IMG/VR virus record: IMGVR_UViG_3300035698_003044
Coordinates: 1-28,397 of that record
DNA from: a virus
Strand: one strand, 5' to 3'
DNA: 28,397 nt
The notes under the pieces were generated by a model that saw nothing but the letters and a program-made list of their open reading frames with translations, was not told where the DNA came from and did not search any database. This document shows positions 7,470-27,857 of the stretch, piece by piece. Both the position numbers and the translations under genes were made by a program. The stretch's first letter is position 1. The number at the start of each line of letters is the position of its first letter.

Positions 7470-7479
7470 TATTAGACAG

Positions 7480-7526
7480 ACACCGCCGAGAAGTCGCATA
7501 GTGTCATCTTGGGCGGTGTTTTGTTT
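7480..7526 (+). terminator. Intrinsic terminator after the lysis cassette
   Basis: A perfect 8-bp stem ACACCGCC (7480-7487) / GGCGGTGT (7512-7519), possibly extended by GAG/CTT pairs, is followed by TTTTGTTTT. It lies 10 bases after the holin stop and would end the late (tail and lysis) transcript. Confidence 0.9.
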
Positions 7527-7538
7527 TAATGATATAAT
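7509..7538 (+). promoter_or_regulatory. Candidate promoter for the 7544-7700 RNA
   Basis: A perfect -10 box TATAAT at 7533-7538 lies just after the terminator. The best -35 is weak (TTGGGC, 7509-7514, 18-bp spacer) and lies inside the terminator stem. The predicted start is around 7544-7546, exactly where the first stem of the structured region begins. Confidence 0.5.
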
Positions 7539-7543
7539 AAATT

Positions 7544-7700
7544 GAACGCCCGAACCTCGAGGTAAGGCGTTTCTCCCTTGCCATACGGTGTAAAAACCGA
7601 AGGATGCCGAGAGAATAAAGTGGCTGAACATCTCGGGCCACCATTGAGTAACAGAACCCGCCACGCCTCTTAACAATGCGCACCGAGGCGGGTCATTTTT
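7544..7700 (+). ncRNA. Candidate structured phage small RNA with pseudoknot
   Basis: This ~155-base stretch has no convincing ORF but several paired segments. P1 is AACGCC (7545-7550) / GGCGTT (7566-7571), capped by ACC-TCGA-GGT. P2 is CCTT (7576-7579) / AAGG (7600-7603) with an inner CGGT/ACCG hairpin (7586-7599). A pseudoknot-type pair follows: CCGAGA (7607-7612) / TCTCGG (7631-7636) interleaved with GTGGC (7620-7624) / GCCAC (7637-7641). The 3' end is a GC-rich terminator hairpin. A TATAAT box is placed so that transcription would start at the P1 stem. I do not recognise the family. It could also be a leader or a DNA site. Confidence 0.55.
7656..7700 (+). terminator. Intrinsic terminator ending the structured RNA
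   Basis: Stem ACCCGCC (7656-7662) / GGCGGGT (7687-7693) is followed by CA and five T residues (7696-7700). An alternative inner stem GCCTC (7665-7669) / GAGGC (7685-7689) competes with it. Confidence 0.8.
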
Positions 7701-7706
7701 ATTAAA

Positions 7707-7735
7707 AAGGAGAGTGCGATGAAAACACTCTCCTT
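7707..7735. promoter_or_regulatory. Perfect 10-bp hairpin enclosing a start codon, or minus-strand terminator
   Basis: AAGGAGAGTG (7707-7716) pairs perfectly with CACTCTCCTT (7726-7735) around a 9-base loop. On the + strand the 5' arm is a ribosome binding site and the loop holds an ATG at 7719 that opens a 12-codon ORF ending at TGA 7755-7757 (MKTLSFRRGPGK), so the hairpin could gate a leader peptide. On the - strand the same stem is followed by a T-run, which would make it a terminator blocking transcription toward the lysis genes. I cannot decide between these. Confidence 0.45.
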
Positions 7736-8067: not shown

Positions 8068-8478
8068 ATGAAAGTGCATTATAGTAGTCAGTCTAATGAG
8101 TGGGAAACGCCACAAGATTTGTTTGACGATCTTGATGATGAATTTCATTTTACGCTTGACCCTTGTTGCACAAAAGAAAATACCAAATGCAAGAAATATT
8201 ACACGGCAGAGGATAACGGGTTATCGAAGTCATGGGCTGGTGAAATTGTGTTTATGAATCCGCCTTATGGTCGTGAAATTGGCAAGTGGGCAAAGAAAGC
8301 ATACGGGGAATGGCAAGATGGCGCAACGGTTGTCTGTCTTGTACCTTCCAGAACGGACACCGCATATTGGCATGATTATTTTATGAAGGGTGAGATCCGT
8401 TTTATTAGAGGACGCGTGAAGTTTAGTAATTCCAAACAGGGCGCACCATTTCCGAGTGCTATAATAATATTTCAGTAA
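8068..8478 (+). CDS. Phage-type DNA N6-adenine methyltransferase (Dam family)
   Basis: A 136-residue protein matching the short phage Dam family. It transfers a methyl group from S-adenosylmethionine to adenine N6. Visible landmarks are EWETPQDLFDDLD (residues 11-23), FTLDPCCT (the acidic SAM-side strand), the catalytic FMNPPYG motif (~62-68), VCLVPSRTDTAYWHDY and the closing RFIRGRVKF...GAPFPSAIIIF. Its length is typical of the family. As the second gene behind the early promoter it would modify phage DNA soon after infection. No restriction enzyme partner is adjacent. Confidence 0.92.
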   Translation: MKVHYSSQSNEWETPQDLFDDLDDEFHFTLDPCCTKENTKCKKYYTAEDNGLSKSWAGEIVFMNPPYGREIGKWAKKAYGEWQDGATVVCLVPSRTDTAYWHDYFMKGEIRFIRGRVKFSNSKQGAPFPSAIIIFQ

Positions 8479-12787: not shown

Positions 12788-13678
12788 ATGAATAAACAAT
12801 TACCAGAAAAAGACTTATTCGGAAATGAGATAAAAAAAGATGTACTACTTCGTGATAAGTTTATTGAACCCCCGTTCTCTGTGCTTGATACTAAAAGTGG
12901 TAGCTGGCAGAAAAGAAAACGACTATGGTTGCAAAGGGGTATAAGGAGTGAATCCGGCAGAGAAGATACCGTAACATTTCGGGGTGCGTTATCCGATAAT
13001 GATTTCTTGGGAAAAAGGATGCAGTCGGCTGGGGATGTAAAGTCTGTATTTGACCCAGCCTTATGCGAGGTTTTATATCATTGGTTTTGTCCTGAAGGGG
13101 GAACAATTTTAGATCCGTTTGCTGGCGGTTCGGTTAGGGGAATAGTGGCTCACTATCTTGATTATTATTACACTGGAATTGAATTACGAAAAGAACAGAT
13201 TGAAAGTAATCGAGAGCAAGCCCTTGATATTCTGCCAGTGACCAATCAGCCCAATTGGTACGTTGGGGACTCCAACAAAATATTAGATGGATTTACAAAC
13301 GAATTTGATTTTGTTTTCAGTTGTCCGCCTTACTTCAATCTCGAAAAGTATAGTGAATTAGAGGGCGAACTTTCAAATATGAACTACGAGAACTTTTTAA
13401 TTGCATACCGCTCTGTAATCCGTAAATCTTGCAAATTGCTTAAATATGGCGCGTTTGCTTGTTTTGTGGTTGCAGAGATTAGAAACAAGAATGGCAACTA
13501 TATTGGTTTTGTTCCTGATACCGTGAACGCTTTTCTTGAATCGGGCATGAAATATTATAATGAATGTATATTATTGAATCCGATTGGAACAGCCATGTTA
13601 AGAACTCGACAAATGGATATTAGTAAAAAGCTGGTAAAGGTTCATCAGAATATTCTTATATTCAGGAAGGATGCATAA
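12788..13678 (+). CDS. DNA N4/N6 methyltransferase (phage type, no ParB domain)
   Basis: A 296-residue methyltransferase. The N-terminal block PPFSVLDTKSGSWQKRKR (residues ~28-45), then RGIRSESGRED, is a signature of a phage methyltransferase family. The SAM-binding motif I is LDPFAGGSVRG (~108-118); the catalytic motif IV is FSCPPYF (~176-182). It methylates an exocyclic amino group of A or C in DNA; the base cannot be told. AAGGAAATGAT precedes ATG 12788. Some relatives are fused to ParB-like domains, which are absent here. The upstream gap holds the pseudoknot candidate. Confidence 0.88.
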   Translation: MNKQLPEKDLFGNEIKKDVLLRDKFIEPPFSVLDTKSGSWQKRKRLWLQRGIRSESGREDTVTFRGALSDNDFLGKRMQSAGDVKSVFDPALCEVLYHWFCPEGGTILDPFAGGSVRGIVAHYLDYYYTGIELRKEQIESNREQALDILPVTNQPNWYVGDSNKILDGFTNEFDFVFSCPPYFNLEKYSELEGELSNMNYENFLIAYRSVIRKSCKLLKYGAFACFVVAEIRNKNGNYIGFVPDTVNAFLESGMKYYNECILLNPIGTAMLRTRQMDISKKLVKVHQNILIFRKDA

Positions 13679-15257: not shown

Positions 15258-15965
15258 CGCTTAAATTCGGATCATTATTTTCTGGAATAGGCGGATTTTG
15301 ACCTCGGCCTGGAACGCGCCGGAATGACCTGTGCATGGCAATGCGAAATAGATCCGTTCTGTAACAAGATATTAGAAAAACATTGGCCAGATGTAAGGAG
15401 ATATAAAGATGTCAAAGAAGTCGGAAAACACAACCTTGAACCAGTCGAGCTTATTTGCGGAGGATTCCCTTGCCAGGACATTAGCGCAAGCGGAAAACAA
15501 GCGGGTATCACGCAAGGGTCGAGAAGTGGTTTATGGTTTGAATACAAGCGCATCATTTGCGAAATTAGACCAAGATGGATTATTGTGGAAAACGTTGAGA
15601 ATATCCTTCGACAAGGAATTGGAATTGTACTCGGAGACTTGGCCGCGTGCGGGTATGATGCACAATGGGACGTGTTACCGGCAAAAGAGTTTGGCGCCCC
15701 GCATACGCGAGAAAGGATATTTATTGTTGCCAACTCCAACGGCGAGCGATGCAAAAACGCACCACAGCGATTTGATCAGGTTCGATTGTTTGAGCGCATA
15801 CCTACGACAAAAACTTGGTTATCCGAGTTACCCGAATCCGCAATTTGTGGAGTTGATGATGGGATTCCCGATAGGGTGGACAGACTTAAATCACTCGGAA
15901 ACGCCGTAGTGCCACAGGTAGTTGAATTTATTGGAAGATGTATTATGGAGGTTGATGGAATATAA
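15254..15965 (+). CDS. C5-cytosine DNA methyltransferase, requires +1 frameshift at 15299
   Basis: ATG 15254 (AAGGAGG at 15241-15247) opens KFGSLFSGIGGF, motif I, then meets TGA at 15299-15301. Skipping one T gives FDLGLERAGMTCAWQ and an open frame to 15965. The joined ~236-residue enzyme has the catalytic GGFPCQD (Cys73), ENVEN (112), QWDVLPAKEFGAPHTRERIF (motif VIII) and LGNAVVPQ (motif X). The target-recognition region is short. It methylates cytosine C5. Without the shift, starting at ATG 15324, motif I is lost and the product should be inactive. Options: programmed frameshift, phase-variable T-run, pseudogene or sequencing error. It overlaps the next gene by 11 bases. Confidence 0.85.
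15287..15302 (+). other. prfB-like +1 frameshift site TTT TGA C
   Basis: Reading from ATG 15254, codons run GGC GGA TTT TGA C. The T-run 15296-15299 lets tRNA-Phe slip by one base and still pair perfectly. UGA followed by C is the weakest stop context, as at prfB (CTT TGA C). AGGCGG at 15289-15294 just upstream is a one-mismatch Shine-Dalgarno, though closer than in prfB. After the slip the next codon is GAC. Confidence 0.6.
15409..15909 (+). CDS. ORF embedded in the methyltransferase gene (phage WPRxGM / MGFPIGWTDL family)
   Basis: A 166-codon ORF in the +1 frame relative to the catalytic methyltransferase frame, wholly inside that gene. It has its own AAGGAG (15395-15400), eight bases before ATG. 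The product contains SLFAEDSLARTL (residues ~14-25), SFAKLDQDGLLWKT, ETWPRAGMMHNGT (~76-88), LLLPTPTASDA (~105-115) and FVELMMGFPIGWTDL (~145-160), motifs I recognise from phage proteins usually listed as hypothetical or methyltransferase-related. Several are shifted readings of methyltransferase motifs (EDSLAR over GGFPCQD), so apparent conservation could be a by-product. Function unknown. Confidence 0.55.
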   Translation: MSKKSENTTLNQSSLFAEDSLARTLAQAENKRVSRKGREVVYGLNTSASFAKLDQDGLLWKTLRISFDKELELYSETWPRAGMMHNGTCYRQKSLAPRIREKGYLLLPTPTASDAKTHHSDLIRFDCLSAYLRQKLGYPSYPNPQFVELMMGFPIGWTDLNHSETP

Positions 15966-16923
15966 ACTCATTCAAGGCGATTGTCTGGAAGTGCTGAAAA
16001 CGCTTGACGCTGGTTCTGTGAATATGTGTGTAACATCCCCGCCTTATTATGGTCTGAGATCATATTTAGACGATGACAGTGAAGATAAACCTCTTGAAAT
16101 CGGCCTCGAACAAACGCCCGGTGAGTACGTCAATAAACTGGTAGAAGTGTTCCGGGAAGTAAAAAGAACGCTGCGGGATGATGGAACTTGCTGGCTGAAT
16201 TTGGGAGATAGTTATAATGGCAGTGGTAAAGCGGGTAAAAATCCAGAGTATCAAGATCGACATACTGAATTTGGGAAACCGTCTAAACACAAAGAACGAT
16301 TTGGAAAGCCAACTAATGTTGCGGGACTAAAACCCAAAGACCTAATCGGAATTCCCTGGCGAGTAGCGTTTGCATTACAGGCCGATGGCTGGTGGTTGAG
16401 GTCTGACATCATCTGGGCGAAGCCGAATCCCATGCCCGAAAGTGTGAAAGACAGACCGACTAAAAGCCATGAGTACATATTCCTATTATCGAAGTCCGCC
16501 AAATATTACTATGACCATGAGGCGATAAAAGAGAATTCCAAATACCCAGATGATGATAGAAAATCAAGGGTGAATGATAATGCTAAAGATTTTCAGAGGG
16601 ATGGAAACAAATTGGCAAAAGGAAGCAAGACATATCCAAAAAGAAACAAGCGCACAGTCTGGACCGTAAACACCAAGCCATTCAAAGAAGCGCATTTCGC
16701 AGTATTCCCGCCGAAGTTGATAACGCCGTGTATTCTGGCCGGAAGTCCTAAAGGTGGATTGGTTCTGGACCCGTTCAGCGGCGCAGGAACTACGGGCGTG
16801 GTATGCGCTAAATTCGGCAGGGACTTTATAGGCATTGAATCGAATCCCAAGTATATCAAGATGTCCAGGAAACGAATAGATAAAGCGAATCAGCAGATGA
16901 TATTACCAATGGAAGTCAAATAA
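15955..16923 (+). CDS. DNA N4/N6 methyltransferase (beta class, S-PPY)
   Basis: Start taken at ATG 15955 because relatives begin MxYKLIQGDCLEVL and GGAGG (15947-15951) is close upstream; an in-frame ATG lies at 15922. The 322-residue protein has the catalytic VTSPPYYGLR (~29-38) first and the SAM-binding LDPFSGAGTTG (~274-284) last, the beta-type order, with WWLRSDIIWAKPNPMPESV between, typical of cytosine-N4 or adenine-N6 enzymes. All key residues are present. It overlaps the C5 enzyme by 11 bases. Confidence 0.92.
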   Translation: MEYKLIQGDCLEVLKTLDAGSVNMCVTSPPYYGLRSYLDDDSEDKPLEIGLEQTPGEYVNKLVEVFREVKRTLRDDGTCWLNLGDSYNGSGKAGKNPEYQDRHTEFGKPSKHKERFGKPTNVAGLKPKDLIGIPWRVAFALQADGWWLRSDIIWAKPNPMPESVKDRPTKSHEYIFLLSKSAKYYYDHEAIKENSKYPDDDRKSRVNDNAKDFQRDGNKLAKGSKTYPKRNKRTVWTVNTKPFKEAHFAVFPPKLITPCILAGSPKGGLVLDPFSGAGTTGVVCAKFGRDFIGIESNPKYIKMSRKRIDKANQQMILPMEVK

Positions 16924-19061: not shown

Positions 19062-19102
19062 AGAGTAAACCTATGGCTAAATTGCCCAAAGGAAATTTCC
19101 CT

Positions 19103-20458
19103 ATGAATATAAAAAAGATAATTAATGTATGTCTCTTTGTGTGTATCCTGCTTAGTGTGGGATGCGCTAAAGAAGAAGTAATGCCTGCCGTTGATCTTGA
19201 AGCGCAGGTAGCAGAACTACAAGCCCAGATAAAAGAGCTGGAAACGGTTGAGGAACCTGCACCAACATTAGAGCCTGTTGTGGTAATAGGTCCTGATGAT
19301 ATTCCTGGTGGACCAAGATTGATTAGGAAAGCGCCCCATGACGATAATAAATATAATGGGTATCAATACGAGCTGAATAGTAAATGGATTCCTGGAATAC
19401 CCACTTATAAGAGCTGGTTTACGCCCAGCCCGAAAGTATTTTCGGGCGCAGCATTCCCTTATGGTTGGAGCGTTATGGAAGCTACGGCTGCATATAACGG
19501 GTTTTCACTTGATGGGTACGTGGATGGGGTTGCGTTAATGAGCTGCGCCGATCAAGGATTGCCCGTTTGGCTGAAGCGACCCGGCCATAGCTGGGAAGGT
19601 CCATATTTGGTTGTAGATTGCGCAAAGCGGACAGATTATTATAATGTTTCAGTTCATAATGCGGAATCCGTTGAGGTTGGTTTTGAAACTGCTGTACGGT
19701 GGGGGATGTCTACGGAAAGATATATCTGGAATGACGAATGGGTAAGTTACTGGTTGGAACCCAGAATTGATGATGTGATTGTTTCTAAAACCCCTCCGAA
19801 TCAGTTACCAGCTGATTATGAATCAGTTGAGTATAAGGAATGGTTCCTGGATATGGTTGAATTCGACCACTTTGCCACTGATGAAGAGGCAACTGCTTAT
19901 TATCTATCAGTTCCGAGATTCTTACGCCGGAACCCAACTGAAGCAGGCGGTATGCCTTACTGGAGAATCCCGCCAAGTAACGAGTTTATTCAATTCCCCC
20001 CGGCTGAGATTTATAGCACGCTAGCTGAAACTAACTTGATTATTCCAAAGGCAATGACTGTTCACACACCTACATCAGTTAGTAAGTCATTTGAAGTTGA
20101 AGCCGGGGAGTTCTGGATGGAAATAGACCTCAGCCAGCAAGTGCTTTATGCCTACAGGGGCGATCAGCAGATCAATGAGTTTGTTATTTCTTCTGGAAAA
20201 GTATTGACACCTACCCCCCTTGGAAGCTATGAGGTGTATTCAATGTACGAGGAATATACCATGCTGGGGCAGGACGGAAATATCCCCGGCGTAAAGTGGA
20301 GCATGTTCTTTCATCACGGATATGCGATCCATGCGACAGACTGGCACAATAGCTTTGGAAAACCTATGAGCAGGGGTTGTATCAATATGCGCACGGATGA
20401 TGCTAAGTGGCTTTATGATAGAGTGGATGAAGGTACTCGTGTTTATGTACACATATAA
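19103..20458 (+). CDS. Lipoprotein L,D-transpeptidase
   Basis: Start at ATG 19103 gives a lipoprotein signal (KKIINVCLFVCILLSVGC, lipidated Cys21) and lies 35 bases after the predicted transcript start; an in-frame ATG at 19073 would leave almost no leader. The 451-residue protein has a coiled-coil stalk (LEAQVAELQAQIKELE), a middle domain (PYGWSVMEATAAYNGFSLDG, YLVVDCAKRTD) and a C-terminal YkuD domain with IHATDWHNSF (His ~410) and MSRGCINM (catalytic Cys ~426). YkuD enzymes form 3-3 peptidoglycan cross-links or attach proteins to the wall. Rare in phages: it may remodel the host wall or block other phages or lysins. Confidence 0.88.
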   Translation: MNIKKIINVCLFVCILLSVGCAKEEVMPAVDLEAQVAELQAQIKELETVEEPAPTLEPVVVIGPDDIPGGPRLIRKAPHDDNKYNGYQYELNSKWIPGIPTYKSWFTPSPKVFSGAAFPYGWSVMEATAAYNGFSLDGYVDGVALMSCADQGLPVWLKRPGHSWEGPYLVVDCAKRTDYYNVSVHNAESVEVGFETAVRWGMSTERYIWNDEWVSYWLEPRIDDVIVSKTPPNQLPADYESVEYKEWFLDMVEFDHFATDEEATAYYLSVPRFLRRNPTEAGGMPYWRIPPSNEFIQFPPAEIYSTLAETNLIIPKAMTVHTPTSVSKSFEVEAGEFWMEIDLSQQVLYAYRGDQQINEFVISSGKVLTPTPLGSYEVYSMYEEYTMLGQDGNIPGVKWSMFFHHGYAIHATDWHNSFGKPMSRGCINMRTDDAKWLYDRVDEGTRVYVHI

Positions 20459-27273: not shown

Positions 27274-27857
27274 TGACTAATAAGCCCGAACTAAAAAGTG
27301 TCTTCGATTCCTTCTTCTGGATGGATGAGGCAGACATACTTTACTGGATTCTGCTACCATTGATAACTAAGTTGGCGGTAGAGATTGGCAAAGGAGCCGC
27401 CATTGGAATTGGTGTTCAATGGGGCTTAGTTAATGATGCGGTTGTTAATTGGGCAAGAGAACATACGTTGATAGAGGTGTCGAAAATTGGTGTAACAACG
27501 CAGAAGTTCGTACAAGACAAGGTGGCTGATTGGATAGCATCAGGCGAGCCACTAAGAGAATTAGAGAAGGAGCTATTACCAATGTTTGGCAAGGTCAGAG
27601 CTAAACGAATTGCGGTTACGGAAGTTACCAATGCTTATGCGGGTGGGAATCTGGAGGCATGGAAAGCAAGCGGGGTGGTAGAAAAGAAAAGATGGAATAC
27701 TGCTGGAACTGATGTATGCCCTATTTGTATAGACTTGGATCAACAGGTTGTTCCGATTGATGCTATGTTTATAGGTAGCGATGGAATGCAATACGAAAGG
27801 CCACCAGCACACGTAAACTGCAAGTGTAATGTTACTCCTGTTGTGGAGCTACCATGA
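27273..27857 (+). CDS. Minor head protein (Mu gpF / SPP1 gp7 type)
   Basis: A 194-residue protein. An N-terminal helical part with hydrophobic stretches leads to the MuF core: RAKRIAVTEVTNAYAGGNLE (~109-128), EAWKASGV, KRWNTAGTDVCPICIDLDQQ (~139-158) and the closing PPAHVNCKCNVTPVV with cysteine pairs that may bind metal. Family members link portal and capsid and may be ejected with DNA. It is shorter than SPP1 gp7 (~300), so this is a compact form. Confidence 0.8.
   Translation: MTNKPELKSVFDSFFWMDEADILYWILLPLITKLAVEIGKGAAIGIGVQWGLVNDAVVNWAREHTLIEVSKIGVTTQKFVQDKVADWIASGEPLRELEKELLPMFGKVRAKRIAVTEVTNAYAGGNLEAWKASGVVEKKRWNTAGTDVCPICIDLDQQVVPIDAMFIGSDGMQYERPPAHVNCKCNVTPVVELP

Follow-up and report, generated by a model that had tools for sequence, protein, structure and literature searches.

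The window analysed here is the whole of IMG/VR virus record IMGVR_UViG_3300035698_003044 (positions 1 to 28,397), a 28.4-kb record that is probably incomplete. Relatives of the phage's terminase are only about 25% identical, and these matches indicate no host. Between the terminator-like hairpin of a holin/lysis operon and a set of small ORFs followed by a Dam methylase gene lies a region that no + strand ORF of the window spans, as the initial annotation had noted in proposing an autonomous structured RNA at this site (Table 1). Four DNA methyltransferase ORFs are present in the early region (8068-8478, 12788-13678, 15324-15965 and 15922-16923), consistent with anti-restriction cargo. The third matches the C-5 cytosine methylase profile only in part and is overlapped in a different frame by another long ORF (15409-15909), such that a frameshift is possible. 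The phage also encodes a YkuD (L,D-transpeptidase) domain protein with a lipoprotein-like N-terminus (19073-20458).

An abiF RNA hairpin behind a predicted leader

The RNA class had at first gone unrecognised, and a search with Rfam covariance models, which the initial annotation had suggested, resolves it. Positions 7657-7693 match abiF RNA (RF03085) with a cmscan score of 47.7 bits, far above chance and above the gathering cut-off of 37, and this is the sole Rfam match in the window at the curated cut-off. The outer stem pairs CCCGCC (7657-7662) with GGCGGG (7687-7692) and is followed by a bulged A (7663), an inner stem (7664-7666/7678-7680) and a UN-AAC-N'A mini-stem (7670-7671/7675-7676). 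The GC stem with five T residues that had been placed at the 3' end of the RNA is thus present, with TTTTT at 7696-7700.

Table 1. Features at the RNA locus, and skipping-rope RNAs of Bacillus phage tRNA regions
Feature	Position	Strand	Basis or remark
Terminator-like hairpin of holin/lysis operon, 5' of RNA	7474..7526	+	fold of 7470-7530, z -5.05
TATAAT, -10-like box	7533..7538	+	TATAATAAATTGAA kept at same junction in sister phage L003
5' leader of predicted transcript	7545..7656	+	putative stem and possible H-type pseudoknot
Full antitoxin-like element: AACAGAA 5' flank, abiF hairpin, TCA + U5 tail (terminator-like)	7650..7700	+	plasmid comparison
abiF RNA hairpin (RF03085)	7657..7693	+	cmscan 47.7 bits; covariation in 31 phage sequences
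Hairpin GGAGAGTG/CACTCTCC, 3' of RNA	7709..7733	+	equivalent hairpin at L003 junction
Skipping-rope RNA	L196:4005-4075		
Skipping-rope RNA	L200:2929-2998		
Skipping-rope RNA	L205:2589-2659		

AbiF is widespread in bacteria and is a proposed ancestor of Cas13, as HEPN RNases are held to be more generally. The protein, which carries the Abi_2 domain, is a Cas13-related RNase of the HEPN type, for which an RNA-bound structure is available (8VZ6; PMC12737573). In prophages of Clostridioides difficile, the abiF RNA RCd22 is located upstream of AbiF, which it binds and neutralises both in cis and in trans; breaking its stems abolishes activity, and compensated stems keep it (PMC12373285). The window RNA shares the hairpin, the core, the AACAGA 5' flank and the U-rich tail of the abiF RNA/RCd22/AbiFr family of AbiF/AbiD type III-like antitoxins. 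It differs from AbiF operons in being phage-borne and in having no toxin gene. Small ORFs, and not Abi_2, lie directly 3' of the RNA, and a search of the window with Pfam Abi_2 (PF07751) gave no match and no trace of a toxin gene, an absence that holds for the window alone because the record is probably incomplete. The two motifs of RCd22 also have no counterpart, since no second abiF motif was found in the 5' leader.

A further difference concerns transcription. AbiF operons have a promoter just upstream and an RNA start near the motif, whereas the window RNA would begin with a 112-nt leader. The TATAAT box to which transcription had been attributed is present, but it has no acceptable -35 element and therefore went unreported by a promoter scan. 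The leader letters are likewise as first described, both for the stem at the transcript start (AACGCC, 7545-7550/GGCGTT, 7566-7571) and for the interleaved pairs CCGAGA (7607-7612)/TCTCGG (7631-7636) and GTGGC (7620-7624)/GCCAC (7637-7641), whose 3' arms are adjacent. However, folded in full length, the 157 nt do no better than shuffled sequences (z -0.91), and the leader is unsupported as a structure. Of sequences obtained by dinucleotide shuffling, 0.5-1.1% contain a perfect H-type pseudoknot of 6+5 bp with its 3' arms side by side. The pattern is thus unusual, but it was noticed post hoc, and the pseudoknot, though possible, is unsupported. The only homologues of 7545-7656 belong to identical copies of this phage, and the leader is consequently beyond the reach of covariation tests. 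We also looked for a ToxI-type array of 34-50 nt pseudoknot tandem repeats, as precedes a ToxN-like gene, and found no repeats, no leader homologue and, at the Rfam cut-off, no family besides abiF. The proposal of an autonomous structured RNA is therefore upheld for the 3' element, a hairpin with a U-run end that is probably a separate transcript, but not for the leader and its pseudoknot.

Solitary copies in phages and selection on their stems

The exact 19-nt abiF core, used as a search pattern, occurs in 71 viral contigs and in 106 stretches of bacterial DNA. Only 4 of the 71 viral loci yielded an Abi_2 gene, versus 58 of the 106 bacterial ones, and where found the gene lies nearly always directly 3' of the core on the same strand. 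When 43 larger core-bearing viral records were searched whole, two proved to have Abi_2 and the other 41 to lack it. When a second core variant was added, the viral set grew to 160 loci in 91 clusters; Abi_2 is beside the motif in 5 of these, while a further 79 extend 1 kb or more downstream and show no Abi_2. The solitary state therefore applies to about 86 viral clusters. Sampled viral loci encode portal, DNA polymerase, head and tape-measure proteins, although some IMG/VR contigs could be bacterial, as illustrated by one (L040) that resembles the bacterial loci L105 and L145 around the motif. Besides tRNAs, no conserved neighbour gene of the solitary copies was found.

Bacteria, too, have solitary copies, since no Abi_2 is detectable at 48 of the 106 bacterial loci in the stretch analysed (mostly 8 kb). 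Some of these bacterial RNAs (for example L134, L109 and L155) have promoter-like sequences and no detectable Abi_2 nearby. Such RNAs may reflect lost toxins, prophages or chromosomal antitoxins.

Cultured and named phages carry the element as well. Copies with re-paired stems are present in Bacillus phages phiNIT1, SBSphiJ and P59, Staphylococcus phage Stau2, Enterococcus phage phiSHEF4, Acinetobacter phage Acj61, Sulfurimonas phage SNW-1 and Streptococcus phage Javan129. Acj61 is the only cultured phage above the Rfam cut-off (58 bits); SNW-1 (33.3 bits), phiSHEF4 (31.1) and Javan129 (30.1) fall below it, and phiNIT1, SBSphiJ, P59 and Stau2 have no RF03085 match listed even at an E value of 0.5. 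These sub-cut-off copies were assigned by the shared core and re-paired stems. The cut-off is strict, given that the AbiF-linked RNAs L034 (32.4 bits) and L089 (35.2 bits) likewise score under it, and for this reason it was rejected as a separator.

Abi_2 is carried by some temperate phages and satellites, and the window record is probably incomplete, so that the RNA might act in trans as the antitoxin of an AbiF-like toxin encoded in the missing part of this phage or in a prophage that it manages. We consider this very unlikely, as true operons have the RNA directly 5' of the toxin, no Abi_2 was found in nine named phage records with the element, each searched whole, and the same holds for the 41 larger viral core records noted above.

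The stems of phage abiF RNAs are under selection. In an alignment of 31 phage sequences, standard pairs fill 98.8% of pair cells, a value inflated by the preselection of these sequences for a stem of at least 5 pairs. Double-sided changes number 57 versus 16.1 in shuffled alignments (0 of 500 shuffles), the covariation score is 0.473 versus 0.124, and the pairing signal collapses when partners are slid. The 31 sequences accordingly have the core together with a two-part stem backed by covariation. An unselected test, in which 3' arms were re-dealt among 86 viral orphan clusters, gives the same picture: 55 of the 86 form a stem of at least 6 pairs, whereas 2000 re-dealings gave 15.3 on average and never more than 26. 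Alignment columns 15 and 19 (window 7671 and 7675) also covary almost perfectly (C-G 27, U-A 24, A-U 4 and U-G 1 in 56 clusters), and this pair, undrawn in the Rfam consensus, closes an AAC triloop. The invariance of the remaining loop is not evidence, because the loop is fixed by the search pattern.

These data bear on whether the RNA is the remnant of a degraded AbiF operon that has lost its toxin, with the RNA now idle or serving merely as a terminator. Such an origin would explain why the RNA so closely resembles those of AbiF operons, flanks and U-run included, and would fit the presence of AbiF in some temperate phages. We nonetheless judge it improbable: the window holds no Abi_2 trace, solitary copies across so many viral clusters have kept their stems through compensatory changes, large phages without Abi_2 are among the carriers, and many copies reside inside tRNA arrays.

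Mobile relatives, insertion site and tRNA arrays

Over the 51 nt at 7650-7700, identity is 92% with a segment of Metabacillus plasmid pB218 and 88-90% with Cytobacillus plasmids. The latter were first suggested by a hand-composed Abi_2-like probe and not by a database protein, and the conclusions here are drawn from later plasmid comparisons. In every plasmid record examined, the matching RNA lies 20-21 nt upstream of an Abi-family gene. Phage and plasmid RNAs have AACAGAACCC in common on the 5' side of the hairpin and GGGTCATTTT on the 3' side, and the outer stem differs by a compensatory pair, G-C in the phage (CCCGCC/GGCGGG) versus A-U in the plasmids (CCCACC/GGTGGG). A B. velezensis plasmid, which is phage-plasmid-like, carries a divergent solitary abiF-like element (L301:1501-1550) along with several YopX-family genes and no Abi gene near the element.

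The sister phage L003, with 76% identity in the neighbouring metallophosphatase, retains TATAATAAATTGAA and the downstream hairpin at the equivalent junction but has a plain terminator where the window has the RNA, and a search of its record gave no RF03085 match. The downstream hairpin marks the 3' border of the inserted RNA. Because the sister phage has both flanks without an abiF RNA, we regard the RNA as accessory cargo. This arrangement also counts against a packaging or replication element, whether RNA or DNA, in line with the packaging-type role first considered. The phiSHEF4 element does lie between terminase subunits, yet the window RNA has no terminase nearby, the element occupies unrelated locations in other phages, and its strongest enrichment is at tRNA genes; we hold this reading to be extremely unlikely.

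Among 81 viral orphan clusters, 22 have a same-strand tRNA within 300 bp, versus 5.95 expected and a maximum of 14 in 20,000 simulation runs. All tRNA-adjacent viral copies are on the same strand as the tRNA, and only 1 of 33 bacterial loci is near one. The P59 copy, for instance, is located between tRNA-Asp and tRNA-Pro. At L258 and L270, immediately 5' of the abiF core, a pair of abiF motifs lies in tandem near a phage tRNA cluster and lacks Abi_2, an arrangement reminiscent of the two-motif RCd22 or of an expanded decoy. Skipping-rope RNA (RF02924) occurs in the same Bacillus phage tRNA regions as abiF RNA.

The location in tRNA arrays, the hairpin with a U-run at the 3' end and the lack of a conserved neighbour gene would also suit a hairpin that serves the phage's own expression, as a terminator or for 3'-end protection, perhaps on processed tRNA-array transcripts, with the likeness to antitoxins reflecting a shared fold. 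We view this as unlikely. Termination does not depend on a particular internal core, yet the element has its loop and inner stem in common with AbiF-linked RNAs; moreover, the U-run is missing in some copies, and another terminator already lies just 5' of the window RNA.

A candidate decoy for AbiF

The window RNA is a solitary phage copy of a defence-system RNA, and the regulatory role initially put forward is too vague for it, as the AbiF toxin is the only known partner of abiF RNA. Many unrelated phages carry toxin-less copies, which makes it probable that the RNA disarms a host defence as a decoy. We assign a probability of roughly two in three to the reading that it is a solitary abiF-type antitoxin RNA, carried as accessory cargo and acting as a putative decoy against AbiF of the host, a plasmid or a prophage. 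Transcription would start from the promoter-like box near 7535 and end at the abiF hairpin and U-run, and the hairpin folds as in true AbiF operons, as homology and covariation show. The RNA might then bind free AbiF made by the host or from a plasmid or resident prophage, blocking its activity, such that abortive infection would not ensue and the phage would be protected, an antidote without the poison.

The decoy logic draws plausibility from the trans-neutralisation and direct binding shown for RCd22 (PMC12373285) and from two phage precedents. Pseudo-ToxI of phage PhiTE is likewise a phage-encoded mimic of a defence antitoxin RNA, although ToxIN has a different toxin fold and pseudoknot repeats, and the wild-type PhiTE locus needed repeat expansion (PMC3475682); the abiF elements reported here, by contrast, are complete. 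Racrs, the RNA anti-CRISPRs, are also solitary phage copies of a defence-system RNA, encoded as solitary repeats, but they target CRISPR-Cas complexes (PMC10651486), while the putative target of the window RNA is the AbiF toxin. A matching toxin in the host population is seen at the species level for P59: plasmids of C. oceanisediminis, the P59 host species, carry AbiF with abiF RNA. An abiF sRNA has been predicted in the lytic cyanophage S-CREM1, the one earlier account of a phage abiF RNA that we found, without function, mechanism or survey (PMC9964418; repeated in PMC12197685). In the open-access literature we found no decoy proposal for phage abiF RNA, although the original abiF RNA and AbiF-Cas13 evolution papers might contain earlier remarks.

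Several observations argue against a decoy. The -35 region is poor, the long leader before the motif is unlike true operons, and toxin-less copies occur at bacterial loci as well. In addition, DNA of lactococcal phage sk1 is reported to protect phage 712 from AbiF, according to a title cited in PMC12737573 and PMC6105707, yet no canonical abiF RNA is recognisable in either sk1 or 712. Phage sk1 (L296) has one tRNA-like gene more than 712, at 27505-27717.

Since the AbiF relative Cas13a cleaves tRNAs at their anticodons (PMC11042736), tRNAs and antitoxin RNA may plausibly act together in counter-defence. A broader proposal, to which we give even odds, is that solitary abiF RNAs, borne by phages of many lineages and often situated in tRNA arrays, make up a widespread kind of RNA counter-defence that has so far gone unrecognised and for which we suggest the name "anti-AbiF RNAs". 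Under this proposal the arrays would serve as counter-defence islands where replacement tRNAs and antitoxin RNAs together overcome HEPN RNases. The presence of the element in the cultured B. subtilis phages SBSphiJ and phiNIT1 makes the decoy idea testable at once. If phages across families indeed carry the antitoxin RNA alone, RNA decoys would be a common means of counter-defence and not two special cases.
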